The notes beneath the pieces are model-generated. The model did not search any database. It saw only the letters and a program-made list of their open reading frames with translations, and was not told the DNA's origin. The translations under genes and the position numbers were made by a program. This document shows, piece by piece, positions 2,859 to 55,836 of a stretch of 64,000 bases of DNA; the stretch's first letter is position 1, and the number at the start of each line of letters is the position of its first letter. Origin of the DNA: Saururus chinensis (lineage: Eukaryota; Streptophyta; Magnoliopsida; Piperales; Saururaceae); assembly GCA_035235625.1 (NCBI GenBank), contig CP141141.1:20643968-20707967 (forward strand), in the 5' to 3' direction.

Positions 2859-4662
2859 TGACAATTCGTAATTATAAGCGAGCCAAGATAAACCGTGCAT
2901 AGAAGAGTAACTTTTCATTAATTTACATAATTACCAAAAACTTTACAAAAGAAGGCCTATTGTGCCTTAACAAAATCAAAGTCGCGCACATCCAAAATTA
3001 ATACATAACAAAATAACGTGATAAAGTAAATAAAAAACGTAGATCTTTCGAAGTCTACGTGCAATCTTCAATAATATCATCTTCTTCGGTCAGACCTACA
3101 ACGTCTAGGGGTGTTTGAGTATAATTATACTTAGTAGATAGAGTTAAATTCTATTACCATGCTAAAACATAAAGCATAAATAAATATCTCATACTAACTT
3201 ACATTCAAAAGTCGACTTAAAATAATATTATTGACTAACCGAATCCAACACACTTCTTATATGAAAAGTTAGACAAAATAGTTCTCTGCATAATCCGGTA
3301 AACTCGGATAATTCGTTCGTAGCCAGAATCTGATAAATAATTTAAAATCGGATAAAACATCATTCACAGAATGTTGTCGATACCGGAGTGACATACACCC
3401 ATGCTCGTCGGGCAACGGGATTAGAATGAAGAAGATCTTCCCACAATATCCAACTTCATGGGCGTCGTATGCCATAATAGGCGGTACTTAGGAGTCATAA
3501 CTCCAATAACTTTTGGGCTTTATACCAAATAGCTACCTTTCAAATCCGGTCAAATCATTCGTAAATGTAATTCAAGTATTAATAATATTTTAAGGTATTA
3601 CGATAAAATTCATATTAGAGGTGTACGATATGCTATTATCTTAGCGTTCACTCGACCCATAATAAACATCATCCTTTTTCAAAATAATATTTTATTTAAG
3701 AGATGAATAAATTACTAAATAGAACGTCTAGTTGTAGCACGAAATTAGAGCTTAAAACCACTTGCACTTGTGAAGCCTTCACTCGTAGTCGGCTTAAATG
3801 CGATGAGCGGCACCTCTCCTTGCACTGAGAGAATCTCCTTGTTGGGCCCGAGTCAGGTGGGCAGAACCTCCCCTAGCACTGGGATAGTTTCCTCATCCGG
3901 CCCGAGAGTGGCAGACAGGGCCTCCTCTTACCTTGGGTCGTTCCCACCTTTTAGAGAGGCTAACTCAAAAAATGGTCCCTCTCACAACATTGGGCACCCT
4001 CAAATTAGGTAGGATAGGTTTTTAAACGGGCAAAAATAAGAGAGAAATAGTGAATAAATGCGTGTTTTAGCCTTACAAACGCACGTTACACAAAAGGAAG
4101 GATATGATAAAGGGGTGGGACAAGTTGGACCTCCCCATTCCTCTCCCTTTTATAGGCGAAAAAGGCCTCTGGATGCGCAACACGTGTCGCGCATCCAGAG
4201 GCCAAAAATCAATGCCGCATTGCGGCAGTTGAATTGCCGCAATGCGGCACATTACCCTGCCGCAATGCGGTAAGGTGTTTTTTAATATAAAATAAAATTC
4301 AAAACTTAAAATGGGCGTATCTCCTTACGAACTCAGAATCATGTGTTCTTAGTACCGTTGGACTCGTATCAATGAGCCCTTCAAAACAAGACCACACATG
4401 GGTATGTTTACTCACTAAAAGAAAGTAGGCTCCATCTATGACATGTTTCCCGAGGCCATAGCCTACTATTTTGTTGTCCGTTTGACACATTCTTGGGCTC
4501 GATACATTTGTCTCTTCGAGCCCTATCAAATATCTTAAGGCTCCTCCAAATGAATCAAGCTCAAAATAATCTAATTTTAAGAAAAACTATTACTGGGCCT
4601 TAGAACTCGCTAATGGGCCCAAACGTTTAAATTTTAAAATGTTGAAATTTTGTGGCATTACA
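2859..4662 (-). mobile_element. Solo LTR-like insert in copia gag (Tekay/Del-like)
   Basis: A block of 1,804 bp interrupts gag. Read on the minus strand it starts TGTAATGCC (complement of 4654-4662) and ends TCA at 2859, so it has TG...CA ends. A minus-strand TATA box (TATAAAAG, complement of 4147-4154) sits about 510 bp in. The U3 resembles the LTRs at 830-1020 and 15060-15290 ('cttagtaccgttggactcgt', 'tcccgaggccata'). Three related roughly 55-bp repeats with 'cctcc..cactg' lie at 3800-3940. No target duplication is evident (agtgc on the left, ggtag on the right), so one end may be trimmed. Identification as a solo LTR is an inference. Confidence 0.6.
4164..4272. repeat. Cluster of four GC-rich palindromes beside an LTR TATA box
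   Basis: A perfect 15-bp inverted repeat (4164-4178 and 4189-4203) encloses a 10-nt loop that itself contains CACGTG. It is followed by three 15-mer near-palindromes of the type TGCCGCAATGCGGCA at 4213-4227, 4235-4249 and 4258-4272. On the transcribed (minus) strand they lie immediately upstream of the TATA box, where promoter elements are expected. Confidence 0.85.
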
Positions 4663-5301
4663 GGTAGTGGTCAGGCAGTATAGTGAGCACAGAGAGGCAC
4701 ACATCGGGATGTTGCAGACAACCTATCAGAACATGCGCATGAGGTAAGGGGATAAAGTGCTTAAGCACATTAACTCCATGCCCATCATTGCCATTGACCT
4801 GGAGAATCATGAGAACCTCATTGATGAGGGTATCCAAGTGTCTACTCTTCTGAATAGCCTCCCTAAGTCTTGGGAGAGTGTGGTTGTTATATTAAATATA
4901 TCTAATAAAAAACTCACATGGGATGACCGCACTGCCAAGCTTGGCTTGGAGCAAGAGAGGAGGAACTGTGTGAGTGCCTAGAATGCATCTTACAACCTTG
5001 CCTATCATGGTAGATCTAAGAGAGGTGGAGGAGGTGATAGTCATGGACCAAGAGGGACTTTAAGAAAAGGGGCAAGAAATCCCAAAGTGGTGGAAAAGGT
5101 AACAATGACAACAAACCCAAGGGAACTTGTTTTAAATGTACCTAGATGGGTCACTATAAGAACAACTGCCCTAATGGGGATCAAGGAGCAAGTAGCAAGG
5201 TAAATCATAAAAGAAGGGATATATTCTACATAACTTAAGATGCTTTAATTGTTGATTTCAATGGGAAGAGCTAGTGGCTGAACTTTGCAGCCATTAAGCA
5301 T

Positions 5302-8691: not shown

Positions 8692-9618
8692 GTTTGATGA
8701 TATGTATTATGGAAAATGACATAACCTAAAATTTTCTCTTACAAATACTTTAAAAAAGGTATGTACACACTATAACTCCAATGTTTGAAAAATAATATTT
8801 TAAAATCTTAGGTTATGACACCCTAACTAGTAAGTACATGATAAAAAACTCTGTAATCATAACATAAGCGAATAACTAATGAAGTAGGTGGAGCCGATAG
8901 GTGGGGACGCAAACCTTAATTCAAGAAAAAACATTTTCTCATTGGTATATCTAATATACTTTAATATTTAAAAAAAGTCAGCCATGACAGCTCTATAGCT
9001 CTGGCCGTCTGATCATAGCTAGAGTTGGAGAGCTCTGACATTCGCATAATATTTTCTCTCACTTTGTTTCTTTGAACTTTTTTTTGTTCACCTAAAAAAC
9101 ACAAAAAAATCATCTTTTTCATTGTATCAATCTATGTTATTAGAATATGTTAGTATGTGCCTCAGCTAACATGGGTTATTTAGTGTAGGCGGAGGCACCA
9201 TGAGGGAACGGTTTTTATGCTCTTCTCTTATAGTGAGTCTTAAGAACCATTGATATTTCATATTGATGGTGTCTACACTTACACATATTAGTGTAAGTAA
9301 TACTGATGCTAATATGTACTATCGTGTATGCTATTGATCTTGTGGATAAACCACTCTTATGCATAATTTACAGTTGGCTCATTGTTTGTGAAGAACATGG
9401 AAAACTATTCCTACCAACTAGCCATCAATTTTCAATTTAGAAGTATATGTTGATAGGGATAAGTAGGTTTGAATCACTCAACCTTCCCCAATATTAATAT
9501 TGGGTTGTCGGATCTCGATGAAAGCTAGGGCATATTATCCTTTTCTATATTATTATAAATACTGTGTTTATTTAAGCGGACCTGATTCGTTTGATAAACA
9601 CGCATGACTTTTTATTTT
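8692..9618. other. Unassigned flank between the copia element and the MULE
   Basis: AT-rich sequence with no recognisable domain, repeat boundary or RNA gene. The 9 bp at its right edge (TTTTATTTT, 9610-9618) are the left copy of the MULE target duplication. Confidence 0.6.
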
Positions 9619-10135
9619 GAGGAATTGACCAAAGTAGACTCCTACTTTGGTCAATTAAGCAAAATGTGAGCAAGTTTCTACTTTTTACCAAAGTAGACTT
9701 GCTCACGTGAGAACTTGTACACGTGGGAGCATTTTTGACTGAAATACCCTCCCCAAAGTATACTTCCCGCTTCTTGGTGTCTACTCCCGCTCGGTCGTGT
9801 CTCCTTGCCGTCGGTTGCAACTGTTCATCTCTGTCACCAGCATCACCTCTCGGAGAGCATCATATTTGCCATTTCCGACTTCATCTTTTCGTTCGTTTCT
9901 CCCTCGACGAAGAGTTTTTAGTCGTCTTGGCCGCATTCCCCTCCGGAGCCGTCATTCGCCCTCGCCTTCACTAACCTTACTGCCCTAATCTCGCCATCGG
10001 CCATCTTGCCGTCGCCCTCACCGCTCTCACTACCCTCATCTTGGACTCCGCCATCTTCCCCTCACCCTTACTGCCCTCGTTTCAGCGTCGCCCACGCTTG
10101 CAGTGCGATATCTCGGCCTCGCCCTCATCTGAAGG
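9619..10135 (+). repeat. Left MULE terminal inverted repeat with 5'-UTR exon
   Basis: The outermost roughly 165 bp are near-identical to the inverted right end. Weaker inverted similarity (clusters of 'gccctcacc/gcctcgccctc') continues to a shared exon edge CATCTGAAG|GTATG at 10135, which mirrors the right end at 22390. The tip holds a perfect 15-bp hairpin (9623-9637 and 9642-9656, 4-nt spacer). The region should contain the promoter and untranslated first exon of the left gene. Confidence 0.8.
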
Positions 10136-11263
10136 TATGATTTTTCTTATAAATTTGCTATTTTTTCTAATTTTAGTCATTGGATTTTGCTTGCATTTCC
10201 CATACGTAAGTGGTTAACAAATTTCCTCGAACAAAACTAGTTACAAATTGCTTGTTGTGATTAGTTCGTAATGATTAAATTTTATTTTTTTGTTAGTAAG
10301 CATCAATTAGTCTCAAATTGACCACTCTGAAGAAATTCTGTTACATGTTACTATGAAACTGCGAACTGAATAACTACAAAACTGGACAAATGTAAATTTA
10401 CTATAAATATACATGGTTAAATAAAATTAAATAGAACTGAAATTTAAATAAAATGAAATTAAATTTCATGGTTATTTGACATAAATATGTGTATAAGTGG
10501 AAAAGCATGAAACACAATAATTGGAAAACTATAAATCTGGAAAACTATACAACTGGATCATTGAATAATAAATAAAAAACATTGTCGTTATTTTATTTGA
10601 ACATTGTCTTTATTATTAAAATTTTGATTATACAATATTTTTATATTCCATTTTCATCTAACATATTTGTATAGGAAATATGTCTAAGTCTGCCGAAAAC
10701 TATAAAACTGGAAAACTATAATATCAGAAAACTATAACACTGGAAAAGTATAAAACTGGAAAACTATAAAACTGGATCATTAGATAATAAATAAAAAACA
10801 TTCTCTTTATTTTATTTGAACAGTCTTGATTTACAATATTTTTATATTTCCTTTTCATCTAAGTATAGGAAGTATGTCTAAGTCTGCTGAAAACTATAAA
10901 ATTGGAAAACGGGAAAACTAGAAAACTATAAAACTGGAACATTGGATAATAAATAAAAAACTGTCTCTTTATTTTATTTGAACATTCTTGATTATACAAT
11001 ATTTTTATATTTCCTTTTCATCTAACAAATATAGGAAGTATGTCTAAGTCTACTGAAAACTATAAAACTGGAAAACTGAAAAACTGGAAAACTGGAAAAA
11101 TGGAAAACTGGAAAATAGGAAAACTGGAAAACGAGAAAACTAGAAAACTATAAAACTGGATCATTTATCATAAATAAAAAACATTCTCTTTATTAATATC
11201 TTGATTATACAATATTTTTATATTCCCTTTTTCATTGATTTTTAATCTAACATATTTGTATAG
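10136..11263 (+). repeat. Putative 5'-UTR intron with tandem acceptor/ATG units and AAACTGG minisatellite
   Basis: This runs from the donor GTATG at 10136 to the acceptor TATAG at 11263. It contains three extra copies of a unit 'ATAGGAARTATGTCTAAGTC' at about 10660-10700, 10860-10885 and 11028-11052, each a splice acceptor plus ATG like the real one at 11258-11275. Each extra ATG opens a 14-codon frame (MSKSAENYKTGKL then stop, or close to it). Between them are many copies of a 7-13 bp motif around 'aaaactataaaactgg'. The same motif, inverted, occupies 21780-22130 near the right end. Confidence 0.7.
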
Positions 11264-11268
11264 GAAAT

Positions 11269-11970
11269 ATGTCTAACTTTGCAGGAAAAACAATGAAAAA
11301 GGAGAATCTACCGAATAAGCTTTATGAAGGGGACCCCCAATGCAAGTCAAGTTATTATTATATTGGTAAATTAAAAGACCACTTTGACAGGCACAAAGTG
11401 CAGAAGAAGTTGTTTGATAGGACATGTTTTGGTAAGTTTATGGAATGTGAGGTTACGCAAAACATGTCCCCTGCCCAAGCCTTCCACCATCTCCTTAAGA
11501 GGCATAAGGGGGATAACCTATTTCAAGTGAATGAGAGGACGAGCATAAAGCTTTCCCCAAAGGAATTTTGTCTGGTTAGTGGCCTGAAATTTGCTGACTC
11601 TACCCCTCCTCTCCCATCAGTGCCGAAATTCTTGAAGAAAGGCAACCTCTTACTGCGAATATTTGGGAGGTTGAAGTTATTAAGAAGGAAGGAGGAGTTG
11701 TTCCAAAATATTATAGTATGTGAAAATGACAAGGATGCCGTAAAGTTGGCGGTAGTTCTTGTATTAGAAAGTTTATTGGTGGGTAGAGGGTGGAACAATA
11801 AGGTGGATAGGAGATACTTGCAACTTGTAGATGACCTGGATGGTTTTGATGAGTATCCTTGGGGAAACCTTTGCTACTAGGACACATTGCGGGGTTTAGA
11901 GCAAGCTGCGAGGTCTATGGGCAATGTAAATTACAATGTCTATGGTTTTGTGCATGTTATAACGATAAGT
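11269..11970 (+). CDS. DUF1985 exon of the Ulp1-type gene
   Basis: 203 codons run from ATG 11269 to TAG 11878-11880. Conserved frame continues past the stop ('DTLRGLEQAARSMG', then 'YNVYGFVHVI') to about 11970, so the stop is a nonsense change inside one exon. Chosen start: the ATG lies 6 bp after the acceptor at 11263 and matches the ATG context at the right terminal repeat. Members of this family pair DUF1985 with a C-terminal Ulp1 domain in plant transposon proteins. Its biochemical function is not known to me. Confidence 0.72.
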
Positions 11971-12481
11971 TTTACTTATTTAATTAATTTTTTAAAACAT
12001 TTTAGTAATTAACTGATGGAGAGTTATGTTTTAGGTGTGGGCAATGGAGAGGATTCCGTTGTTGGGGGATTGTTGTGCAAGCAAAATGAGGAGTATTTTT
12101 CCTCTTATATGTAGTTGGGCATCTTACAAGAAGCCCAAATTCGATTATCTTGAGGAGGTGGTTTTTACTCGGAAGGTATATACTAACTTTTCATTCGTTC
12201 GTTTAGAATGACTTATGCTATACACATACATGGTACATTTACCTTGCCATATGTATTGATATGTAGGTAAAGTTTTTAAAGGCTATAACTGTACATGCGG
12301 AGGACAAAGAGTCAAAGGCACTTATTCATGAAGCTGCAAGTTTGAAGTCCTTCTTGACAAATGAGAGAGTAGCATTTACATCATTTGTCAGTCTTCAAAG
12401 AGCTTCTGATGGTGAGGATGTTGATATCAAGTCTACCTCTGATGATGACTCTACGCGGGAACGGAAATCCCAAGAGGTGGC

Positions 12482-13916
12482 TGATAAGTATGAAATATAT
12501 ATCTATTTTATATGCCTTTTTACCTTATTTGCTAGTATAAATTAGGTTAATTTAAAGTTAGTTATGGTTTATTTAGATTAAGATAGATATTAGTATTTTA
12601 GTTTAGTTATTAATAATTTTGTAGTTATTAGTAGTTTAGATATGTATTTGAATCAAGTTGGAATTTTAGTAATATTCTACATGTCTAAAATGAGATATTT
12701 TATGCTTTGTAGGTAATATGCGCTTATCGAACTCTTGGACAATACTCGGAATAAATGAAAATAGTCTTGACATATTTTAAAGTGATTTGGACAACTTTTC
12801 GGAATTATAAACAAGTTGGAAATTAATATGGACATGAAAGAAAGGGCTTAATGAACAGAAAATGGACTGTCCAGAAAAACTGTCCAAATTGCAGAAACAG
12901 TGTAGACGTTCGAACGGCCCTGCAGGGAGTTAGAACGGGATAACGTGATTTTGATGCAAAATGCAGTTCAAGCGTTCGAACGGGCATGCAGGGCGATCGA
13001 TCGGCATAACGCGCAGATTCCTTATTTCACCCAATTTTGAGTCCTTTTCATATACAACTCTTTTCTTACGGATCTAATGCCTATATAAAGACTTATTTGA
13101 CACGAAATTAAGAGAGAACAAGTAGATTTTCTGAAGAAAAGAAGGAAGAAGAAGATGGAGAAGAAGCCAAAGCTTTCAATGGAGATTCAATTACTTTCTT
13201 CTACCATGGAAGGCTAAACTATTATTTTACTTAGGAGTTGATGAACCTATAGATAAGTTTCAATTTCTTTTCTTTTTAATTTAGATCTCAGTTGTGAATT
13301 ATGACAATTGTATGATAAGGATTTCCTTTTTAATGGAAGAGCTTTTTAATATTTATTCAAATCTATGTTGATTTATTGTCTTGTAGATGATAGATTGATG
13401 TGGTTTTGATATTTCCATCAATTCTAATTTCTGTGATTTAGATGAGATGGTCATACAATAGTTTTAATGTTCAGATAATTAAGGACTTGGATTAGTTATA
13501 CTAAGATTAGATGGGTCATGCCTATAGTTATTTAGTATAGATGATTCGTGCTATTGTCGAAGATAGTTCATGCCATGGAAATTAATTAATGATTTTTTCT
13601 AAAGTAATTCTAGCTTGTAGCTGAGAATACTTGTTCATATTCACACTAGATTTAGATTAAAAGTTAAGGAATTGTTATGGTTCTATAGTGGATTCGATTT
13701 CCTAAGTAAAATCTATCATATTAATCTCTTGTTTTTAAACTAGTTATTTTCTTTTCCTTTACTTAATTTAAGTTTAAGTTGTTTTAGTTTTCAATCAGCA
13801 AATTCTTCTTTATATTTAGTAATTATTCATCCGTCCCTGAGGTTCGACAACCCTTAAATACTCATCCTAGTACAATTACCTTGTACACTTGCAAAGGGTT
13901 TAATTATAAACGATCA
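12482..13916 (+). mobile_element. Solo LTR, TGATAAG family, copy A
   Basis: 1,435 bp with TGATAAGTATG at the start and AACGATCA at the end, flanked by perfect 5-bp repeats GTGGC (12477-12481 and 13917-13921). No primer-binding site or coding region is present, so it looks like a solo LTR left by LTR-LTR recombination. It interrupts an exon of the Ulp1-type gene: the reading frame resumes cleanly at 13922 once the insert and one duplication are set aside. Close relatives sit at 32840-34274, 58105-59536 and, inverted and interrupted, 41562-55579. A purine-rich 'gaaggaagaagaag' block lies about 660 bp in. Confidence 0.9.
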
Positions 13917-14363
13917 GTGGCTCAATCTTTAGATGAAGATGTAGATGCGAATTTTATATTGAAATGCAGAGTGGCTGGGGAGACTTCTAATTGGAATGAG
14001 GTTAGAAAGGAGAAACATAGGGTGGGGGATGAGGGTTTGCATGCCACATTATAAGATATATTGTCTTCCTTAAGAAGGATTGAAAATAAAGTAGATAAAT
14101 TGGAGTCAGAGGTTATGACCAAGGCATCTAAGGAAAAGGTAAAAAGACTATGAGGTTTATGTTTTCATTACAAATTTGTCAATTTTAATATTTGAATTAA
14201 AATGAGCTGGAATGATGTATTTGTAGGTTCCTGTTGTTGAAGAAAAAGTTTCTAGTCAAATAGATTGCGATTTGCCGCATGTTGATGAAGTAAGTACAGT
14301 GTAAAACTGTAATACTGTAAAATTGTAAAATAGTTCTAATTTTTCTTTGCTATTTTTATGTAG

Positions 14364-14927
14364 AATGTGGTTAAAAAGATAGATGGAGAGGCGGAAAAGG
14401 TGGTGGATGTGGAGGATGAGGCAGAGGCTGAGGAGGAGGGGGAGGATGATGAAGAAGAGGCGGAGGCAGAGGAGGAGGATGAAGAGGAGGATGAGGATGA
14501 GAAGGATGAGGAGGATGAGGATGAGGAGGAGGCTGATGATAAAGAGGAGGATAAGGAGGAGGATGAAGATAAGGAGGAAGAGAAGGAGGAGGAAGCCAAA
14601 CATGAGGGTATGGAGGTGGATAAGGAGGAAGAAGATCAGGAGGATAAGGAGGAGATGGAGGAGAAGGGCCAGGATACAAAGGAGGAGGAGAAGGGTAAGG
14701 ATGCAAAGGAGGATGAGGAGGAGGAGAAGGGGGAGGAGGCAAATGAGGATGAGGAGGAGGGTGAGAAGGAGAAGGGGGAGGAGGCAAAGGAGGTTGGGAA
14801 GGAGGAGAATAGGGAGGATGTAAAGGAGGGTGAGGAAGAGCCTGTTAAGGAAAATGAGAAGGGGAAGGGAGAGGATGTAAAGGAGGAGGAGGAGGAGGGT
14901 GTCGTGGGGACTATTGTTGCCATTGAG
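14364..14927 (+). CDS. Acidic low-complexity exon (Glu/Asp/Lys-rich)
   Basis: About 188 codons are almost entirely GAG/GAT/AAG. They lie between the acceptor TAG at 14361-14363 and the donor GAG|GTA at 14927, and stay open throughout. Purine strand bias (GGA/GAG repeats) makes all frames of both strands look open, producing Leu-, Ser-, Pro- and Arg-rich shadow frames. It links the DUF1985 and Ulp1 halves and would be a disordered, highly acidic spacer. Expansion by replication slippage is likely. Confidence 0.7.
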
Positions 14928-14972
14928 GTACAGATAATTATTGTTAATTGAAGGTAGTTGCATATAACAAGA

Positions 14973-16838
14973 TGTAACGACCCATTTTTCGATTACGCTT
15001 AACCCAGGAGGGTTAAGGGTAATTTGGTAATTTAAGATTAATGTTAAGGGGTTTCATTAGATGAAATACCCGTAGCTAGGTAGAGCTTGGCATAATGAGC
15101 ATAACGATTCAAAGAATGTACGAAACGGAGGTCGGGACCGGAAGTGACGACCTCGGGAAACGTAGACATTAGGCGGGACCCACATAGAAATAGTGTGATT
15201 TTATTACTTAAGTGTGTTTTTATCGAAGGGCTCGTCGATACGAGTCCAACGGTACCTAGAACGCGCGAATCCGAATTCGGGGTATGAAGATACGCGCGTT
15301 TGAAGGCTTAAGAATAAAATAAATAAAAAGAAATGGGTGAGCCGGCGCGGCGCGACCCGCGGTCGCCGCGGTTTCACGCGGTCGCGACCCGCGTAATGTA
15401 CGGGCGCAAGCCACGCGCGTTTCGGCGGGCGCCGCCGCCCGAAACCAGCGGCGCAACCGCGGTTTCGGCGCGGCTCGGGGGTTATAAATACCCCCATTTC
15501 TCCTCTTTTCGAACCAGTTCTTCTCCTCCCTTGTTTCTGATCGTTCTGAAGCCGATTAAGGCCGTTCAAGACCCATTTCCTACTAAATCGAGCGTGTTCT
15601 ATGCGATAGAGTGGTCATTTCTTCGATTCGGAGACTGTATAAGGACGAAATGCCTCAAGACAAGGAGAGGTTCTGCCCGAGCACCGACAAACTTCTTTCT
15701 CCCCGTTCTTAAGCATCCTAACTCCGATTTAGTCCATCCAAGATGCGTTCTTGACTAAATCGAGTATGTTCTACACGATGGAGAGGTCCGTTCTTTAATT
15801 CGGCAACCGTATAAGGAGGAAACATCCCAAGACAAGGAGAGGCTCCGCCCGTTATCCTCGAGCACCGAACAAGAAATATGGGCCCGGAGCAAGACGGGGT
15901 TCTGTCCAAAGTGGTCAGGTTACATCAAGAGAAGTAATCCAGAGTATGGGAGGTTCTGTCCGCTGCTCACGGCATAGAAAACGAGAAGAGTCTTCGGCAA
16001 GGAAAACGTTATACATAGTCTTTCGACGCAAGACGAAGAACGTATGGAGGCTAGAGGAAGCTCTGTCTATATCTTCGGATCTGAAGGGGAGGATGCTCAT
16101 ACGAGCAACTCCGAATACCGCTACCTTACGAGTCATGAGGGCAGTAAGCTTTTCTGACCTCCCGTTTTAATTATGCCATGATGTGTGCTATGCCATGATG
16201 TGAGCTTGTATGCTATGATGTACGCTTATATGTTATGAAGTGTGATGTCTTGCTCTAGGGTAGAGCAAGACGTGTGATGTGTGTGTCCGGTCTCGACTCA
16301 GTGATAGAGCGAGTCGGTTGTTGTGCTCAGTCTCAATTCAGTAATGGAGCGAGATATGCGTATGTGATTTTGATCCCGCTCTGTGGTAGAGCGAGGTGTA
16401 CGATTTCGTTAACTTCCGCTTGACTCCGATATATGACGAGTTTTTGTATACTTCCGATTAAATATTCGGAGATACGTATGTATATGATTTTGTGATGCTT
16501 GTTGTGTGTAGTAGCCATTAGGCAGAACTACGTTCGGATCCGATCGTATTGGAATAATATCCGATACGTACGTAGGCAACCAACGGCAATGCAACGTTGG
16601 CCCGATCCAAATCATTATAAATAATATGTTTTATTCTGTTTTACACGCGACGAACTATGAAGCTTCGTTGTGTGTAAATGGTCGTTACAACCTAAGTCTA
16701 CGTACGAGGAAGCCTTAAGCTCCGTAGTGCGTAGGCGAACGTTGTACCTCTCGCATTCAGACGATGATTCCTGGCTTAAGGAAAATTTCAAATTCCTATC
16801 AGTGATTTTGTGGGCCCGGCTCGGGTCGGGTCGTTACA
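14973..16838 (+). mobile_element. Solo LTR, Tekay/Del-like, 1.87 kb
   Basis: It starts TGTAACGACCC and ends GGGTCGTTACA, with perfect 5-bp target repeats CAAGA on both sides (14968-14972 and 16839-16843). A TATA box (TATAAATA) is at 15483-15490, preceded by an extremely GC-rich, CpG-rich stretch (15335-15475). A roughly 171-bp direct duplication runs 15552-15722 and 15723-15890. The element lies within the intron between exons ending 14927 and starting 16874. The Tekay/Del assignment rests on LTR end sequence and layout only. Confidence 0.88.
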
Positions 16839-17720
16839 CAAGAAGTAATATGTTTTCTTATCTTCTTATGTAGGACGAAGAAGATGACAATAAGCCTTTG
16901 AGTCAGCATAAATTGGAAATGGCACCAGCGGTAAGGGTGAGGGCTAAGAGTAAATATCGAAAACCCCCCTACATAGACCCACAAAAAAAGGGCAAAAAAA
17001 GAAAGGTCACTGAGAAGGATTTGGATATGTGGCCTGAACCCCTAAAGGTTGATACCTCTACCATGAAGAAGGTGAAGAGCAATAAATTGCTAATGCTAAG
17101 CGAGGCTGCCCGATTGGATTTTACTAACCCAGTTTCATTTGGGGCAACAGAGGAGGACAAGTTAAATAAGTTTTTAGAGAAGGGTGCTAAGAAGTGAGTT
17201 CATTTGTTATTATTCCAAACGGAAATATTTTATTTTTAATACTATTTACTTAGCATTGTATTTGATTTGAGTGTTGGTATTTGTAATAATCAGATATGCA
17301 GAAATTGGGGGCATTCTTATAACCCCAGCATTATTGAAGGGTTTTACAAACCCTCGGAGATGGCTAGGAGATGAAGTATGTGTATTGATTTATGTTGTTT
17401 TAATAAACGTTTGTAAAGGCTAAGGAATGAATATGTATTAATCTATTGTGTTCTTGTTTCTATATAGCACATTGATGCTTATGTGACACTCATGCGCAAC
17501 AATGGGCCTCGATGGGTGAGGGACCAAGCATTCCACTCAGTTCATTTCTTGGTAAGCCATCATATTTTTTAATTCACTGAACTCTGAACTGTGAAATGTA
17601 TAACTATCAATAGGATATTGGATAACTGTCAATAGGATAGTGGATAACTGCCAATCGGATAGTGGATAGTGGATAACTGCTAATGGGTGAGGATGAAAGT
17701 TAATTTACTATGTGTTTGCA

Positions 17721-18272
17721 GAGATTGCTTGTGCGTGACTGCAAGGATGCACTAGATAAGTGGATGGTATTCAAAGATGCACATGGCACGCTGCCAGAGT
17801 TAGAGGAATGGGCCAACATGTGGACATCAGTCCCAGACTCTTTGAAGAGCTTGTTGTGTGTGAAAGGAAAACTATTTTCTAAATTTGCACATCATTACTT
17901 CCCACTCAATGTCAACAACAATCATTGGATTTTGGTGGTGCTTCGTATATGGCAAGGTGATATTCAGATTTTTGACCCTCTTTACTCAGGACAAGATTTG
18001 GAAAAGTATGACACGGAGGTGGGCAAGCTAAAGGTCCTTATACCTCTAATCCTCTATAAGTTTGGATGGTTAGAGTGCGCCAAATGGTGGACAATGGATA
18101 TTGTGGAGGTAGTAGGTCACCCCAAACAGGTTAACTGTGATGACTGTGGGGTTCTTGTATGTTTATACATGCGGTATTTGTCACACTGATATGCTTTTGA
18201 CTTCATTGGTGAGGATGTGCCCCGGCTAAGGAAGTTACTTGCGTACCAGTTATGGACAAAAAAAGGGTTACG
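17721..18272 (+). CDS. Ulp1 (C48) cysteine protease domain exon
   Basis: The open frame covers 17710-18189, with exon start after the GCAG acceptor at 17720. Catalytic features in order are the His in 'NNNHWILVVL', the Asp in 'IFDPL', and the oxyanion Gln plus nucleophile Cys in 'QVNCDDCGVLVCLYM'. These fit the His-Asp-Cys triad of SUMO/NEDD8-type proteases. A TGA at about 18187 cuts the frame, but 'YAFDFIGEDVPRLRKLL' follows in frame, so the ancestral protein was longer. The triad itself is intact. A tandem 'ggatagtggataactgc' repeat sits in the preceding intron (17600-17690). Confidence 0.82.
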
Positions 18273-18420
18273 GTATGAACTTAGTGTGGCATGAATTATT
18301 TTCATCTCTTAACATTTAATTGAGGGCTTTACTAATGCAGCTGATGAACCCTTTTTCAGAGTATGACAATGGCCTTCCGGAGACATACAAGCAAGAATAG
18401 CCTCTACCAAATGTTGAAGC

Positions 18421-19587
18421 ACAAACCCTGCTAAGATATTGTTCTTTTATGGTGTATTTAAATTATTTGCTACACATTCAGTTATTGTTCTTTGATGGTG
18501 TATTTAAATTATTTGCTACACATTCAGTTATTATTCTTTGATGGTGTATTCAAAATAGATATTGTTGTCACCATATGGTTAGTTTATGGTGTATTATAAA
18601 TACGAACAACACAACACATTCAGTTATTATGACAACATGGTGTGTTCGGGTGGATATTGTCTTAAACATACGAACATTTGGCATTAAGTTCAACTGGATT
18701 AGCGATTCGAACTGGAATGCTTTTCACTGTCAACTGTGAACTGGAAAACGCGCATCTGTGAACTGGAATACTGTCCGCTGTGAACGGGAACACTATCCAC
18801 TGTGAACTGGAAAACTGACATCTTCGAATTGTAATACTTTCAGCTGTGAACTGGAAAACTTTCAAGTACACAGTACACATGGAACACCTGGAAAGCCAAT
18901 TTGGGCTTTGTACACCTTTATTCGAACATAATGTAGACGTAATATAACCCGCTGTAGTTTTTTCACTTATACATGTCATATGATGAAGAAGAGGGTAAGT
19001 GCTGTCAAAAATACCATATATATATTTGCGAGTTCCCATATGAGCGTCTCCATCATATGACAGCCCGATAGGAAAACACAACATCGTTTGCTTAGTCCAG
19101 GAAAATGACTACATCCTCAGGTGGTTTTATCACCAGAAAGGCTTCCTACATGGGTTGGTTGATCTTTCGACTTACTTTTGTTTGGGCATTTGTTTCCTTC
19201 TTCACGACTTTTCTTTGGCACATCTGAACGGATAGCTCCGTATAGTCATTCCGTGCAGAAGAATCATTCATGTGATTTGGGATAATGAGAACTGTGTTAC
19301 TAGATGAAAAATGGTATTTTGGTTTGGTTATATATATGGGTCATTACGTATTTTATGATAAAAAGATTTCTGGCCATCTGGAAAACTGACAACGGGAAAC
19401 TGAAAAGTTGGAAGACTGGATAACTACGATACTGGAAAAGTAGACAACTGGATTGCTGATATGATACGAGAAGAGCATGGAAAGGGATACACAAAGTTTG
19501 TTGTGTGTTTAGGATGTACATTGGGATGCAAGTTGTAGGAAATATAATTGCGACAATGCAGAATCAAAACTAATTGAAGTCCCATGC
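18421..19587. other. Intergenic region of the MULE with 46-bp and GAACTGG repeats
   Basis: No coding domain is seen. A 46-bp unit is repeated about 2.5 times at 18441-18560 ('ttgatggtgtatttaaatt'). A looser array of 'ctgtgaactggaaaac' units occupies 18680-18870, and similar ones occur at 19380-19460. The last part probably contains the transposase upstream region. Confidence 0.6.
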
Positions 19588-21204
19588 ATGGTGACTTATG
19601 TTGCTCTCTTGGATATGTTGTACGAAGTGTGTCAATGGTCAAAGAAAGATTACTTATTAAAGTTAAGTTTCATATATCCTATTGCAGTGCCTATTGACCT
19701 TCCACCTTCTCAAATAAATGACAATGGAACTCTATATTGCTTCCTTCGAGAGAATAAACTGAGGTCGAATGGAATACCATTGATGATAACTAAAGTCCGC
19801 AAAGAGAATATTACTGAAGGGAATATTAGTGTCAAAGTGCCGAAATTGCACGAGGAGATGATAAGCAAAAGTGCAAAGTGGGAGGTGAATATAGGAAGAA
19901 GTGGAGCCATGTGGGAGGAGAAGGGCACATTTTTTAGTGTACCATACAACACAACTGTCAATCTCAATTATGATGAAGATAAACTTCAAGTTGATGAGCT
20001 ATTTCATTTGGAGGAGGAGAGTAGGATGAAGAAAACTCAAACATCCCGAATTGATATCGATTCAAGCATTAATGAATATGTCCCAAACACGAATATAGAT
20101 GACTTTCAATTTGGGCAGGATCCTTATTATGTTTCACCATCAGCATATGAAGATGATCCTATAGGCAAGAAGAATAATGGTGCAGAAGACCATGATATGA
20201 GTGCTCTAACACCCGAAGATCAGCCTTGTAATGATCAAAGGTACAGTCAATATTGTGAATTGAGATTTGTAAGTTTGTATTAAGTATGTATATGTATGAG
20301 ACTATTAATACAAAATATATTGTGTAGATCAAATGGAAGCAACTGTAGTCAGCAACCGCCTGTTGACGAAGATGTGGAAAACATAGACAGTCCAAAAATA
20401 TCAGTTCCAGTTCCAGTTGAAAGAAGGTAAGTTTGTTTTTTATTTTGGAAGTTTATAAGTTTCGTAGTTTTACAGTGTGGCAGGTTTTCAGCTTGGCAAT
20501 TTTTTAGTTTGGAAGTTTTTCTTTTGGCAGTGTTTCAATGTGTGGCGGTTATTCTTTTTGGCATGGTTTACTTTTGGTAGTTTCTAGTTGAATAATTTAC
20601 ATTTTTAATTTTCAGGAAGAATAAGAGATTGATACTTGTTGAAGAACCCCCAAGTTTGGTGTACAAAATGGACATTAGTGGGGAGGATCCCTATGTAAAT
20701 AATGACTTTGGTGATCAATTAGGGAAGGCCTTCTATGATCGCGAATCGATAGAAATTGGTCAACAATTCAAGGACAAAGCCATGCTTCAACTTCACCTTC
20801 ACAACATGGCCATGTACACCAAGTTTCAGTTTAAGGTTATATATTCAAATAAATCAAGGTAAAGAATCAGATGTGTAGTTGAGAACTGCCCATGAAGACT
20901 ACATGCCTCAAGAATTAGTGGATGTTTCATGTTCAAAGTGAAGGAAATGAATTTAGTACATACATGTTCGAAGGCATTACTTGGTGAAGATCATTGTCAA
21001 GCAAAAAGTGGGATTATCGCTGATGCTATATACAGTCGTATGGAGGGACGTGGGTCTTACACACCAGACGATATAAAAAAAGATATTAATGTCAAGTATG
21101 GAGTTTCCATAAGTTATCGTAAGGCTTGGAAGGCTAAAGAGGTGGCTGTGGAGAAGTTGAGGGGAACTTTTGAGGAGTCTTATGCGCACCTTCCAGCTAT
21201 ATGA
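19588..21204 (+). pseudogene. MuDR-type transposase (MURA), N-terminal part only
   Basis: The first exon starts MVTYVALLDMLYEV and reads as the N-terminal PB1-like domain common in plant MULE transposases ('YPIAVPIDLPP'). Spacer exons lie near 20330-20427 and 20615-20862. The MuDR DNA-binding domain follows: 'FKDKAMLQLHLHNMAMYT...KFQFKV', then Cys..Cys and 'LVHTCS'. Two nonsense codons (TAA at about 20862, TGA at about 20895) fall in this domain while conserved sequence continues to 'FEESYAHLPA' at about 21195. The catalytic DDE/MULE domain and C-terminal zinc knuckle that should follow are absent; an inverted repeat begins exactly there. Confidence 0.85.
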
Positions 21205-21604
21205 AGAGGATGACGACGCCCTTCCGGAGATAGAGATGCAGTCTAACTTTGGAGCTCCAAGAAGCCTAGACATGAGCTGAGCTCAGCTATCATGCGATCA
21301 ACTGGGGGATCACAATAGGCGGGCCACGTCTCAACTGTGGATCTTCCTCACGGACGACAGCGAGAATGGCCTATGCCAATTCCTGTCAGTGCAGCATAAT
21401 TTTATGCTGCACTGAGAGAAATTGTCATAGACCAATCGGCTGTCGTCCGTGAGGAAGATCCTCAGTTGAGACGTGCCCCACCTATTGTGATGCCCCCGTA
21501 GATCGCATGATAGCATAGCTCAGCTCATGTCTCTGCTTCCTGGAGCTCCAAAGTTAGACTGCATCTCTATCTTCAGAAGGGCATCGTCATCCTCTTCATA
21601 TAGC
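21195..21604. repeat. Near-perfect hairpin (two roughly 205-bp arms, 2-nt loop)
   Basis: Arms 21195-21399 and 21402-21604 are inverted copies at roughly 90% identity; the centre reads gcagcataa-tt-ttatgctgc. The left arm starts at the last codons of the transposase fragment, in place of the catalytic domain. The right arm joins, on the minus strand, an ATG exon belonging to the right terminal repeat. RNA across it from either side would fold into a long duplex. Confidence 0.92.
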
Positions 21605-22390
21605 TTCTTCAGCTGTTTCCCCTTTTCGATTGATTTTCTTTTCTGCAGCCTTTGACATTTCCTATACAAACATGTTAAATTAAAAATCAATCAGAAGGGA
21701 ATATACATATATTGTATAATCATATGATAAATATAATGCCTAAAAAATTCAATTATTGCTCACTAATGAAGCTCTTTCTTATCTAGTTTTCTAGTTTTAT
21801 GATTTTCCAGTGCTATCGTTTTCTAGGTTTATAGTTTTCCAGTTTTATATGTTTCCAGTTATTCAGTTTCATACTTTTCCACCTATTTTACGGCAAATGA
21901 CCAGTAAAATTCCTGTCAATTTCCAATTTTTCGGTTTATAGTTTTCCAGTTTTGTAGTTATTCAGTTCACAGTTTCATATTAATATTTATCATACGTACT
22001 AATCACAACAAGCAATTTATAAAAATGCTTTATTTGCAACAAAATCTACCTTTTCAGTTATCCAGTTTTATGATTTTCCAGTGTTATAGATGTCCAGGTT
22101 TTATAGTGTTCCAGTTTGGTAGTTATTCAGTTCACAGTTGCATATTAATATTTATCATACATACTACTCACAAAAAACAATTTGTAAAATGCTTTATTCT
22201 CAACAAAAGACTACATTTTTGTTATTATGTGACAGTCACAATAATATGAGAACTACAGGCACAAACCAAATAGAAGAAAACATGAAAATTGTTCAATAGT
22301 CATTTCAATAATCATGTATGGGACATGGAGGCAACATCCAATGACTCTCAACAGAAAATATATCAATTTTGTTTACATTAAAAACATACC
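21605..22390 (-). other. Start of a second, minus-strand gene driven from the right terminal repeat
   Basis: On the minus strand a 5'-UTR exon ends CTGAAG|GTATG at 22390. An intron runs to the acceptor TATAG (22389-21662), and ATG follows at 21658, opening 'MSKAAEKKINRKG'. The layout and first residues parallel the left side (MSK...). Soon after, a frame shift or stop occurs as it enters the hairpin arm; another frame continues 'KKLYEEDDDALLKIEM'. The intron is filled with 'ccagttttatagttttcc' repeats, inverted relative to the left intron. It is a truncated gene start; the product is unknown. Confidence 0.55.
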
Positions 22391-22784
22391 TTCAGATGAT
22401 GGCAAGATAAGGGCATTCAGGGCGAGGGCGAGCTGAGGCAGTGCAGGCGAGAGCGAGGCCAAGGTGAGGGCAGTGAGGGGGAGAAATGAGACCGGAAATG
22501 ACAAATCCGGCGTGAGACAACCAGCTGCTCTTCGGGAACTGACTCTTCGGGAACTGGATGTGGAGAGGGAGACGAACAGCCGCTCTCTGGGAAGCAGCGG
22601 TGGAGAGGGAGATGAAGAGACACCATTCACCGAGGAGAAGTATACTTTGGGGAGGGTATTTCAGTCAAAAATGCTCTGACGTGTACAAGTTCTCACGTGA
22701 GTAAGTCTACTTTGGTAAAAAGTAGAAACTTGCTCATATTTCGGTTAATTGACTAAAGTAGGAGTTTACTTTGGTCAATTCCTC
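22388..22784 (-). repeat. Right MULE terminal inverted repeat
   Basis: Inverted partner of 9619-10135: the outer roughly 165 bp are about 90% alike, and the GC-rich inner part holds the same 'gagggcgag' style repeats and the shared exon edge. It is shorter than the left arm by about 120 bp. Confidence 0.82.
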
Positions 22785-24567
22785 TTTTATATTTTAACCA
22801 TTGGCTTCACCAACCACTGCTTACTTCCTAAGCCATAAGAAAAGTCAAGGGAGGTCCCTCTCCCACCTAGCTGCCGGAGTGTACGGAAAAAGTTCTTAGC
22901 TGAGGATAAGATAAAGTGGGCAACAACAAGATTCCATGCTTTTTGCAGGCTGCTAATGGCTTCTCTTGTTTTTCTTCAGGCCATTAGACAAAGCCACAAA
23001 GTGAAGCATTCTAACGACTTCTTGTTCACTTGATCAGCAAAGCAAAGACCAGTATCAGACTTCGTAATTGATGATGCTATTACAAACAAATGTGAGAACT
23101 AGATATAATTTTCAACATATGAAGTTTAAGCAATAAATTAAAAAAATAATATATAATGTAAATTTATATGTCATAAATCACAGTATAAATTCATAAACTT
23201 CTCTCTTGCTTGGTGAACTAGTCCCTCTATCCCATATTAATAGTTAGATTTCAAAAAATAATAATTTTTATTAAATAGTAAAACTAACATCTAAGAGTAG
23301 ATAAAATAAGCTTATGACACTCATTTTAAGTACCCAATCACATTGAACAAAATAAAGCTATTAATATAGAACAATTTTTTTTGTCAAATAAAGCTATTAA
23401 TTTAAGACATACATTTCTCTAGTTAGGAGGTATGACCTGAACTTAGAAAATAAGATATTCTTTTGTAGCATATCAAATGCCTCTTTATCACATGAAGCTT
23501 TTATCATATAAATAAGGAGTCTCTCACCCCCTATTTTGGCTAGCCTACCCCACATATACACAACATGTAAATGTTTACCAACTATATTAATGGAGTTGGA
23601 TAGCTAAAAGAGGGGGTGGAAGACTTCTCATCCTTATCGGATAAGGGCACAACGAGCAAACAAACAGACTTACTCTAGAGTTCAACGTGATGGAAATTTT
23701 CATTAATGGAGTAACTCATCAGTCTCAAATATGTTAGTCTCACACTTGGATAGAAGTGTATACAATGAGCAATCACTTGCAACATAATAGTATCATGATC
23801 ATCTCTTGAAACTTTCCTGCTTACTTACCGTAGCCACTTTCATCATGTCTACAGCTTTAGTCTATGCTCTCTTGAAACCTTTTTGGATATGTAATCTCTG
23901 TAGAATATTTTAAAATAAAGTCTGATTTAGATTAAGCTCTTGGCTTTTGCCTGAATTCTAAATGCAAGCAACTTGCAATTGGGCATCTAACAGCTGGAGA
24001 CCACCCCATATTCTACGAAGTCAGCTTACCACTAATAGTTTCCCTCAACCCAAGCTAAAATGGAAAGTCGAGCCATGAATCAAGTGGGAAAAAAGGAATA
24101 CTTGTACCTATGATGGTTTTCACTACAATGAAATTCACATTTGCTTCATCTTACATGAATGCAATAAAGACCTTTTCATGAGATGATGAATGCCAATTTT
24201 TAACCTGTGCGTGATCTTCAGATTAATTCATACATGATTAATTTTTCATTGAGAAAAAAGCTTCTTAATACAATTTTTCACATAAAAGGAAGAACATTTA
24301 TGCACACTGCTCGAATATAAGGGGACTCAATGGCAAATATCATCTGAAACCAAACATCATACTGCTTCCAGTCGCATTCCCATTTTACGAGACATACCTT
24401 CTATGTACAATGTATCTTACAATCCCATAAAAAACTTTCACAAATTAATATTGTACGATACCATTCTACATGTAAGTTTGCAGTACCCTATACATAATTT
24501 AACAGAAGCTGGCAGCTTGCCTCTTTACACCATAACTTCAGTCACAGTCCTGTTAGCTTTACCAGCT
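22785..24567. other. Unassigned spacer with a possible degenerate MITE
   Basis: No gene is recognised. At about 23218-23435 the phrases 'tccctctatcccatattaat' and, later, 'agctattaatttaagaca' with 'aggaggta' recall Stowaway-like miniature elements, but the ends do not pair well. The rest is AT-rich with no repeat I can define. Confidence 0.4.
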
Positions 24568-27500
24568 TCACCATGCTCGCCTTTGCTGCATCTTGCTCTG
24601 TTTGATTGATATCAGTTTTTCACAAACAACCCAGGCAAAACTAAGGAAATGAGGGCAGTTTAGTCCTTCATTATACTCCCCCCAGTAGACTGGATGATAG
24701 GTAACATGATACCATGCTGATGCCTTAGCATAGGAATCACCAACTGCATGTTCGTGAGATTCAGTTCCATTCTTATCAAACCAAGGCCTGGCTTCCTTAA
24801 AGACCTTACCGCAAGTGCAATGTCCTGTGTTCTTTTTCATTCCAGAAATATTTGTCAAGAAGTATGATAACATGATACTTCCACTTATTATCTCTGCCTC
24901 ATGTTTTACTCCATAATGATTCATCAAGTTTCCCAGTTTGAAATCATACTTCCCCTTGTAGTAACAAGCATCCATAGCATAATCCTCAAAACCGTCCACT
25001 TCCATATCACGATCATAAGATTTTTTAGCCATCTCAAATGTGAAAGGCTTCACGTAGCCTGAATCAGAGATTACTTGTTTCACTGCTATGTAGAGTTTCC
25101 CAATCACTCGCGTGGACTCGTAGGTAGGCCTGTCAAGCTTCTCCCTGAAATCTGGATATTCCTTGACCTGCAGACGTGAGGGTATTTCAGCAGGGATTCC
25201 TGTTTTGGGGAAGTCTACGGCCACTGAGAAAAGATTTGATAGTTCAAGGTAGGTTGTACTCTCGGCCTTTAGTGCTTCCCTGTCTGCAAAAACTACATGA
25301 GCATTTGCAATGACTCCTAAGCTGTCATTGACCTTGTAGTTAAAGTACTCCTCAATTTCCTGCATCATATAAGCACAAGAAAGTAAATAAGATATTTCAT
25401 TTTTCTCATCAACTATAAAATCTTGTTTTCAGATAATAAGCTACTGGCAGTTACATCAGCAGATAAGATACAAAAAGAAAAGACAATTGCAAGCCAGAAT
25501 TCAAGAACATACCTCGATAGTAACATCTCATGATCAACCGTTTTATGTAGTGATGTATCATATTCCATTGGAGGGACTTGACGAGGTGGAATAAGTTCAG
25601 GATCCCAACAAACAAAATACATATCTCCATCCAAATCACTACCTGAGCATTCATTTGGGTGCGGCCTAAACAGCAAAGTTAAAGTAACATAACAGTCAGT
25701 TACATGAGAAAACTAACAAAGAATGAATTTTCAATAAGAATAAGCAATAGCCGCCGAATAGTGTGTAAATCAAATAAACCAAGCATTTTGTTTTTGTTCT
25801 TGTTTGGTCTAATATGACTATGTTAAGCTACTGGTCTTTGTCAATCTAGGGTAAGGCCCAACATGCATATGTTTGATTCTCAAATTAGGATGTAGTGAAG
25901 AAAAAGTACGAAAGAAACTTAAAATATACCTCTTCCCCTTCTGTGGGAAAACAACGCAATCAACCATATGGTGTAATGCTGAGACATCCACAGCATTCAA
26001 GATCCGGATATCTCCAGGGTGTAGACATGGGTTTTTAGCCACAATCACTCTTCCCTCAACCACAAAGAGCCCTGACCTGAGCTAGTTCCACTTAAACCGG
26101 AGACAACACTACTACCATAAAATTGCTTCTGATTAACATAAGAAGACTTCACAAAGACTTGCCCATAGTCCAAGGTTCTGGTCTCATCTAAGCAGCCCAC
26201 CATACATCTTCCATGTGGAACAAATATTTGAGACTTCATCGTCAGTTCGGACAGCTTCGATTCTTGAAATGCTTGCAGCATCATGGACAAGAATGGCTTG
26301 GTACAGGGCTTGTATCCACACATAAGCATATCCTTTAGAACTCTAGTTCTCTCCTGGACACATGAACTCTTGTGACTCCTGTGCATTGATAGGGTCAATT
26401 AAAACAGTGTCCAACTGTTCCACAACTGTCTCTTCTCAAATGTATAATCTGGAACCCCAAGAGTTGACAAAAGAGTAATCAAATGGCGGTTGAGGAAATA
26501 AGGTTGGTACTTGCCCCGAGCCAAAACATCCAACTTTGTGTTATTTGATTTGTACTTATACATGCTTTTTCTTAATGACATATTACATGTCTATTGTGGA
26601 TCGATTGCCATGACTCCTTCGTATCCAGTATACCTGATTTGGAGGGCAGAGGGTCCTGTCCTTAACTCATGCTTTCTAGCCACTTTCCATGCAAACTCAG
26701 AAGATATTTTCCCGATTCCATGAGAGAAAGTATAATTTGTTTTCCAGACACACCTCCACATCAGGAATGTGATCAACTTCAGTAATAGTAATTCTCAAAG
26801 TTTCTTTTGATGAACTAACTGATTGACCAAGTCTTGCTGCATACTTGGCTACGTTTCTGATATCACTAAAGTTGCCCATCCACCTAATATCAGCAGCTGA
26901 AAGTCCATTCCTTGAGGCAAACATATGAAGAGAGTTTTCTCGAAGCTGACTTGAAGAGAAAGACAGAAATTCAAACCTCTTTTCACAGATAACTATTCCA
27001 TTCTTCAAAGTAGAAAGACTCCTCTTGTAAACATCAGTTTGTCTGTCATCATCGCCCGGATCATTTTCTGAGTACTAAATCAGTGGATCAGATCTTTTGA
27101 GAGTCCTCGTCAACAAAAGAAACTTGAAGAAAATTGTTGATATCTTCAGAGTAATTCCGCAAAACTCTGTTGGAAACAATAACTTCAGGCCTGTAGAAGT
27201 AGACCTTAGAAGGAGTAACTTGGATCCTACGTATACTAACCAAGCCATGTTCCATGAGAAAGACATCATAATTGGATGAAGAACGCTTTGAGGTTTGGCA
27301 TCATTTATATGTCTCCTGCAGAAACTTAACAGGCAGAAAGCAAGATTTTTTTTAACCGAGCAAGACTTTCCAATCCATGTTCAATTTCTGAAATTGGCAC
27401 TGTGAGGATCAACCAAGTTATAGAATTCAAAATCAAGTGTGGGTCCAATAAGAATTCCTTCCTGAACAAGTGAGTTTACTTTGTATATTATATAGCAACT

Positions 27501-28894: not shown

Positions 28895-29395
28895 GAGACT
28901 GTGTGACACCCAGTGAAGCAAATGAATAAGAAATTACAGAATTTGCTAAAAAAAAGTCATTTTCAAAATGATCGCACGTTCCTTTTCCTCATACCTCAGT
29001 GATTTAGAGACCAAACAACAAAGTAGCAGCAGAAACACAGAAAGATAGTACAGCATCATCTTGAAATGGATCATCAAAACAAGCAAAATAGAAAGTCTGT
29101 GTTGTTCACCTTCAGACTCTGATCTTCCAGTCTCTACACTCCGTGCTTGCTCCTTGGTGGTCACTATAATGGAGACATAGTGGGAAAGAGGGTGGAAGGA
29201 GCTTCAGCTTTCTTGCTCTGGTCTTCCCTCGGAAAAACTTTGTTGTTTGGGCTCTAAATCACTGAGGTACGATCTAAATCACTGAGGTACGAGGAAAAGG
29301 AATGTGCGATCATTTTGAAAATGACTTTTTTTTAAGTAAATTCTGTAATTTCTTATTCATTTGCTTCACTGGGTGTCAGTGTGTCACGCAGTCTC
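28895..29395. repeat. Foldback element (roughly 130/158-bp arms) upstream of the RDR1 pseudogene
   Basis: Left arm 28895-29023 and right arm 29238-29395 are inverted copies differing by few bases; both end in 'gagactg(t/c)gtgacac' outside and 'ccaaacaacaaag' inside. The right arm has an extra 20-bp tandem copy around 'taaatcactgaggtacgatc' and a 6-bp insertion near its tip. The 214-bp centre is not repeated. No target duplication is clear. It could be a MITE or a local inverted duplication. Confidence 0.85.
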
Positions 29396-55584: not shown

Positions 55585-55836
55585 CTAAGGTCATTTATGT
55601 TGTGCATCATGGCTTGAATTTGTCTAATTAAGTAGAACTTATAATTTTCACTCTTCTAATATCCCTTCCTATGCTTAGACTTATGACTTTGATTTCTGGG
55701 AGGATTATTAAGTTTTGATACATTGTCAGTGTATGGAACAACCTTTATGGTATGCATGGATACTTTCATTTTAAGAAACATAGAGACACCCTTGAAACTA
55801 GAAGAATTTGACTCTTTAAACCCTAGTCCTTACTTA
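55585..55836 (-). pseudogene. Copia-type gag fragment, distal part
   Basis: The minus strand from 55836 reads 'GLGFKESNSSSFKGVSMFLK' and later 'NQSHKSKHRKGY', resembling the basic region before a gag zinc knuckle. It lies between two nested LTR insertions and is probably the continuation of the fragment at 61272-61750. Weak evidence. Confidence 0.4.

Follow-up and report, generated by a model that had tools for sequence, protein, structure and literature searches.

A palindrome, probably inherited and lengthened by repair, in an internally deleted DUF1985/Ulp1-carrying MULE of Saururus chinensis

The host element and its palindrome

The window, as we call the whole 64,000-nt stretch of Saururus chinensis DNA analysed here (C2:20643968-20707967 of the searched genome of 516 Mb in 11 contigs), holds a MULE at 9619-22784 on the plus strand, whose limits are given by a TIR pair and by colinear relatives. 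The left TIR (9619-9766, plus strand) and the right TIR with which it pairs (22637-22784, minus strand) are each 148 bp long and identical at 140 of 148 positions. They are flanked by the target-site duplication, TTTTATTTT on the left (9610-9618) and TTTTATATT on the right (22785-22793), the two copies of which match at 8 of 9 positions; the target-site duplication of TIR-MULEs is 9 bp long. Among the flanking 9-mers of nine elements, six pairs agree at 9/9, two at 8/9 (the window copy and C8c) and one, C8b, at 4/9. The window copy measures 13,166 bp, and eight other copies that were measured are 10.9-11.8 kb long. Compared with other copies it has two insertions, at about 12483-13911 and about 14977-16830, which resemble solo LTRs, with TG...CA ends and, by eye, 5-bp duplications (GTGGC and CAAGA).

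The left gene of the element combines a DUF1985 part (11251-11880, plus strand; PF09331, E = 1.8e-12) with a Ulp1-type Peptidase_C48 part (17704-18189, plus strand; PF02902, E = 7.4e-11). To its right lies a mudrA-like transposase gene. The N-terminal part of the transposase (20596-20862, plus strand) gives a weak match, below the cut-off, to the MuDR DNA-binding family (PF03108, E = 0.01) and is colinear with relatives, and the last sense stretch before a deletion junction (20896-21194, plus strand) has no Pfam match itself. The 148-bp TIRs, the near-complete 9-bp duplication and the mudrA-like gene bear out the first-pass annotation in its assignment of the locus to the MULEs. Together with the DDE domain of a relative, the long TIRs and the duplication place the element among the TIR-MULEs, and the C48/Ulp1 gene inside it places it among the Ulp1-carrying MULEs. 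We regard it with high confidence as a non-autonomous member, with an internal deletion, of a TIR-MULE family that carries DUF1985/Ulp1.

According to the available text of PMC13317346, a mudrA-like transposase and a Ulp1 (C48) gene occur in one MULE in Arabidopsis (KIU/Kaonashi), melon, rice and grapevine, and the window family shares this combination. The Arabidopsis Ulp1-MULE group is described in that text as non-TIR, whereas the window family has 148-bp TIRs. The window family also adds, near its right end, a palindrome with arms of about 180 bp, and no such palindrome was found described in the same text. Short CTGGAAAA words are a further feature of the element, with 18 inside the window MULE versus 2 in the 50.8 kb outside it. 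Fourteen are on the plus strand, all left of the hairpin, and four on the minus strand, all right of it; arrays of them occupy non-coding parts at 10537-11124, 18741-19432 and 21803-22074. Non-coding parts rich in short motifs, in a MULE with an extra gene, recall VANDAL/VANC as described in the available part of PMC10398659, and by this analogy the motif enrichment may offer a lead towards an anti-silencing link.

The palindrome begins at the point where the sense transposase breaks off. More specifically, an inverted-repeat search and folding place its left arm at 21195-21399 (plus strand) and its right arm at 21402-21605 (minus strand). The outer arms (21195-21361 and 21439-21605) are 92% complementary, and the inner arms (21364-21399 and 21402-21437), with 2 nt between them, are 86% complementary. 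When the minus strand of 21150-21650 was folded as RNA, its energy was -375.3 kcal/mol, whereas shuffled sequences averaged -154.1 (z = -37), and none of 100 shuffles equalled the native value. No Rfam family matched window positions 18000-24000 at the gathering threshold. The complementarity and the fold confirm that the two arms of about 205 bp with a 2-nt loop, as first annotated, are real and correctly placed. The annotation was also right that the left arm is joined to sense transposase, which reaches about 21194, and that the DDE domain is absent exactly at the arm, since the window holds none of the residues of our DDE-region query.

The palindrome across the family

Relatives were sought with window positions 20900-21700, which gave 488 first-look candidates, of which 40 places were scored, the window itself included. 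All 40 match the hairpin and its right flank, and 20 of the other 39 were fetched with wide flanks. The palindrome is present in 20/20 of these, as expected from a query that contains the hairpin, so that this set is a biased sample for hairpin presence and no test of it. Self-complementarity is 83-91% over about 340-360 bp in 19 of the 20, and the palindrome of L023 extends over at least 636 bp at 92%.

The fetched relatives are informative about the missing catalytic part. All 174 residues of the DDE-region query are kept in 19 of the 20 and none in L010 or the window, so that two of 21 copies have lost the DDE region, one of them being the window. Sequence that is contiguous at the window's junction is split by 1.65-2.2 kb in 19 of the 20 relatives, while L010 gives no alignment in this part. 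The segment lost in the window, about 2 kb, comprised the DDE and SWIM parts, the 3' part of the transposase and a spacer. In C2a (C2:1450850) the DDE piece matches PF10551 (E = 7.6e-18), and in the near-complete element C8a the C-terminal piece matches SWIM (E = 8.6e-10), with the left arm beginning about 0.7 kb past the end of the last transposase reading frame. Intact relatives with a DDE domain between both flanks, for which the first-pass annotation had proposed a search, therefore exist (19 of the 20 fetched). Its view that the hairpin replaces the catalytic domain has to be given up, because the hairpin is family-wide and the catalytic part was deleted beside it.

The abundance of the palindrome was estimated from short arm words. 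Genome-wide, an outer-arm 21-mer with up to 3 mismatches gave 108 forward and 114 reverse matches, while its reversed control gave 0 and 1. For a 21-mer from the inner left arm there were 122 matches versus 4 in the control. From these counts we estimate roughly 110 hairpins in the genome. Positions were listed for 100 of the 222 outer-arm and 100 of the 122 inner-arm matches.

A less biased test started from the DDE domain, with the best 150 of 2978 candidates scored. Of these, 107 had at least 67% identity, and the other 43 about 50-54%. An arm lies within 12 kb downstream, either strand counted, at no fewer than 77 of the 107 places; 30 of the 107 have no arm among the matches listed, whether through the length of the listing, truncation of the copy or true absence. 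Among close DDE places (identity of 84% or more) at least 51 of 56 have an arm downstream, and at 67-84% identity at least 26 of 51 do. One sister-family place, L039, whose DDE is 54% identical, was read over 3.8 kb and shows no such hairpin. A Ulp1-type C48 gene (PF02902, E = 1.2e-19) lies on the opposite strand downstream of its transposase, at L039 2515-3075 (minus strand).

These counts suggest that the hairpin is the family's resident palindrome, which follows the transposase gene and precedes the right end, and we hold this reading with high confidence. As judged from the sequences compared, the hairpin is ancestral to the MULE family. Two other origins were weighed against it. An unrelated fold-back element or MITE could have inserted into the family ancestor, which would fit the fact that the arms match nothing else in C8a and that their outer ends are common to the aligned relatives. 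However, no target duplication was seen by eye at the outer ends where the window was aligned with 19 relatives. Among the matches listed, 22 arms have no listed DDE within 6 kb (this comparison used a downstream limit of 5 kb, as opposed to 12 kb for the count of 77 in 107), and six of these arms belong to family copies, two each in the window, L010 and L037; the other 16 could include free-standing copies. We consider such an insertion unlikely. A false inverted join during assembly is extremely improbable: palindromes are hard to assemble, but the hairpin sits at the same place in many copies, and the two arms of the window differ from each other by about 10%.

The resident palindrome also bears on the comparison with the Mu killer locus of maize, on which the first-pass annotation had modelled a self-silencing role. 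The available part of PMC3440606 describes Mu killer as a single locus at which TIRA and about 1.3 kb of mudrA are duplicated in inverted form. The same text questions the hairpin model, in that silencing was effective where short antisense transcripts arose from a promoter within the locus. The window copy shares with Mu killer, as described there, an internally deleted MULE, inverted sequence and a possible hairpin transcript. Unlike Mu killer, its arms hold no transposase sequence and its hairpin is common in the family. An inverted duplication of transposase or TIR sequence was not found (no arm 21-mer matches elsewhere in C8a or the window at 18/21 or better), and the arm downstream of at least 51 of 56 close DDE places speaks against a unique rearranged locus, so that the supposed locus-specific duplication is not supported. 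Hairpins in MULEs are unsurprising as such, because 62.8% of maize Mutator elements hold predicted ones, mostly toward the terminal repeats, according to the available part of PMC10760457. In the partial texts covered by our literature search, we found no MULE family described as having a hairpin of its own inside the element.

Deletion and arm extension in the window copy

What sets the window copy apart is the outer end of its left arm. The hairpin alignment comprised the window and 19 of the 20 relatives, with L028 left out. The first 39 nt of the left arm (21195-21233, plus strand) are an inverted copy of the outer end of the window's right arm (21567-21605). Within the alignment, the window and L023 are the only rows with this 39-nt piece on the left; in the remaining aligned relatives it forms the outer end of the right arm only. 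The two copies in the window differ at 3 of 39 positions (C/T, C/T and G/A), which argues against an identical-copy read artefact and, again, against a false join.

The deletion junction, compared with L009, reads CTTCCAGC followed directly by TATATGAAG. The left parent reads CTTCCAGC and the right-arm strand AAGCTATATG, so that AGC, at 21195-21197, is a microhomology common to both junction partners. A second difference concerns the 12-bp AACTAAGCATAG. All 19 relatives carry it in the left arm, and 18 of them carry it in the right arm too, in some copies with substitutions; it is missing from both arms of the window. L009, the nearest fetched relative by hairpin score, has instead lost 14 bp of its right arm at the AACTAAGCATAG site. 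The 12-bp loss was compared across paralogues because this nearest relative carries a different deletion.

These features can be accommodated in one repair event. The loss of about 2 kb may have arisen in interrupted gap repair or in other break repair. A strand end inside the palindrome would have snapped back on the complementary arm, been copied 39 nt further outward and then released. The released strand would then have been ligated, through AGC, to the broken exon of the transposase, leaving the transposase gene dead and the hairpin longer. We infer that the 2-kb loss, the 39-nt inverted extension and the AGC join reflect repair with template switching; judged by sequence, the product would look the same after gap repair as after simple end joining with filler. 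Hsia and Schnable (1996) reportedly described interrupted gap repair in MuDR and the resulting internal deletion derivatives. Filler DNA at plant break repair has already been published (PMC2686159, in its available part). The window copy resembles such MuDR derivatives and plant filler DNA, as far as the accounts available to us go, in its internal deletion, short junction homology and templated extra bases. It differs from them in the source of the templated bases, a resident palindrome that is itself made longer by them.

Our preferred reading, to which we assign a probability of about 0.87, is that the window copy is a deletion derivative of a hairpin-bearing family, in which the hairpin was inherited and then lengthened by repair. 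A hairpin beside a cut-off transposase tempts one to read the place as a silencing locus; the relatives reveal an inherited palindrome and a deletion. The window copy is at the same time a clear case of a palindrome inside a DNA transposon that was lengthened by copying its own arm. Well-paired arms therefore need not mean selection for hairpin RNA.

Other copies show related rearrangements. In L023 the left arm is lengthened by a copy of the right end (around 4290-4750 and outward). L037 (1-2001, C9:7551700-7553700) carries an extra inverted right arm and right end 1.1 kb from its normal hairpin, with 95.8% identity over 429 bp. The left arms of L023, L025 and L026 have the usual right-arm letters at alignment columns 105, 108, 126 and 144, and at column 121 both arms of these three depart from the remaining copies. 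The majority letter of the left arms is not that of the right arms in 16 columns, 11 of which fall within the innermost 50 of 207; such clustering would be the expected product of outward re-copying.

The right end and possible roles of a hairpin RNA

Right of the palindrome, the element repeats the beginning of its left gene in inverted and degenerate form, with the TIR, first exon, donor, repeat-rich intron, acceptor and first codons. This inverted copy stops about where the hairpin begins. On the minus strand, the predicted first exon spans 22390-22636 (its 5' limit is inferred), the predicted intron with TTTTCCAGT-type repeats spans 21662-22389, and the predicted start of the second exon, a degenerate copy of that of the left gene, spans 21606-21661. 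The intron is drawn from splice-site-like words common to the left end and 21 copies, which put the predicted acceptor at about 21661/21662 and the predicted donor at about 22389/22390. Donor-like and acceptor-like words occur in 21/21 copies; the donor GT is kept, and adjoining bases are changed in several. The first-pass annotation had joined the right arm to a minus-strand start exon. A minus-strand homologue of the left gene start does adjoin the arm, but the adjoining piece resembles the beginning of a second exon, with an intron ahead of it, rather than a first exon. A coding role for a short right-end ORF (KCQRLQ...) was discarded, as it matches no Pfam family and is interrupted by stops in C8a.

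With its TIR, first-exon-like stretch and retained splice-like words, the right end does resemble a transcription start aimed into the hairpin, as had been proposed, and throughout the family transcription from the right end into the hairpin is plausible. One reading of such a transcript is self-silencing after the manner of Mu killer, in which transcription from the right end would give a hairpin RNA and then siRNAs that silence the family. The arrangement of the right end in all 21 copies, pointing into a hairpin of -375 kcal/mol, speaks for it. In addition, the available part of PMC10760457 reports that in maize Mutator elements small RNAs match miRNA-like regions in larger numbers, an effect that is stronger in autonomous elements. 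Several results speak against it. Right-arm 21-mers, with up to 3 mismatches (18/21 or better), have no match elsewhere in C8a or in the window, so siRNAs from the hairpin would not directly match, and hence not directly target, the transposase coding sequence. Furthermore, a hairpin common in the family leaves the window locus as no special killer.

Methylation-type mutation was considered next to these results. C-to-T changes at CHH sites amount to 32/1826 (1.8%) in the arms versus 210/7661 (2.7%) in coding sequence, 85/2397 (3.5%) in the right exon-2/intron part and 17/866 (2.0%) in the right first exon. At CG (9.9%) and CHG (8.2%) sites, the arm values are within or below the range of other element parts. 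There is no CHH C-to-T excess in the arms among the copies that survived a colinearity filter, which removed the hairpin rows of some copies from all of these counts.

Sequence divergence gives a similar picture. On average, left arms diverge by 7.55% between pairs of copies, compared with 6.7-7.8% for the right-end exons and intron, 5.8% for DDE/SWIM coding sequence and 5.4% for the right TIR. These values come from 120 copy pairs, with the hairpin of some copies removed by the same filter; with all 21 copies (210 pairs) the left-arm value is the same 7.55%. The spacer after the transposase, for which only 15 pairs were available, diverges by 9.9%, above the 7.6% of the arms. By these figures the arms are not more conserved than the adjoining right-end DNA, though they lie below the spacer.

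Upkeep of pairing within copies was assessed on 162 pairs from the L012 structure. Over 20 rows, own-arm pairing was 0.944 and swapped-arm pairing 0.943. The L012 row, as the source of the structure, pairs at 1.0 by construction, and the count was repeated without it. In the remaining 19 rows, own-arm pairing was 0.9414 versus 0.9401 for swapped arms, and 213 of 2000 random re-pairings did equally well or better, so that there is no clear signal of copy-wise upkeep in this comparison. The arms of one copy diverge by 13.0% and those of different copies by 13.8%, and are thus slightly more alike within a copy.

With no target 21-mer, no CHH excess, arms that diverge as fast as right-end DNA and own-arm pairing close to swapped-arm pairing, the sequence data leave silencing by the window hairpin unsupported, and we judge the self-silencing reading very unlikely. 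Like the hairpin of any other member of the family, that of the window could be a dicing substrate if it is transcribed.

The palindrome could also be a functional part of the family, giving a non-coding hairpin RNA from a duplicated Ulp1-gene promoter, for dosage control or as a silencing decoy. The inverted copy of the left gene start, stopping about at the hairpin, would suit such a role, as would the presence of the hairpin in close and more diverged copies and the likeness of the outer arms between the two sides. The joint change at column 121 in L023, L025 and L026 fits selection for pairing as well as re-copying, and the lower divergence of the arms than of the spacer, from its 15 pairs, points the same way. 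On the other side, own-arm and swapped-arm pairing are nearly equal, the arms diverge as much as the right-end exons and intron, DNA re-copying can explain the likeness of the outer arms, and the one sister-family stretch has no such hairpin. We find a functional role unlikely. Taken as one joint proposition, it is unlikely that a second Ulp1 promoter, leader exon and intron drive a spliced non-coding transcript into the palindrome, that the palindrome arms are renewed repeatedly by fold-back copying, that each copy makes dsRNA which limits itself or diverts silencing from coding regions, and that deletion derivatives like the window copy make dsRNA most efficiently. For the window hairpin locus the most likely role is none, as a relic of repair. 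Should small RNAs be found, a family of about 110 hairpins would be a natural test of element-encoded dsRNA. Units on opposite strands are known in MULEs, since the available part of PMC9168764 describes a reverse ORF in the barley Abermu MULE.

Several other features lie in the window outside the element. A broken RNA-dependent RNA polymerase (RDR) gene, with PF05183 pieces in several frames, some with stops, occupies 25081-27219 (minus strand), less than 3 kb from the right end of the MULE. Five RDR sites, this one included, lie between 19.44 and 20.94 Mb of C2, and there are more on C10. A MITE-like 62-bp inverted repeat (97%, with 264 nt between its arms) lies at 28947-29334, and a 166-bp inverted repeat (75%, 2.7 kb apart) at 55352-58345. 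Retroelement remnants on the minus strand at 44032-44526 and 48615-49076 carry integrase H2C2 (below the cut-off) and RT_RNaseH_2 matches.
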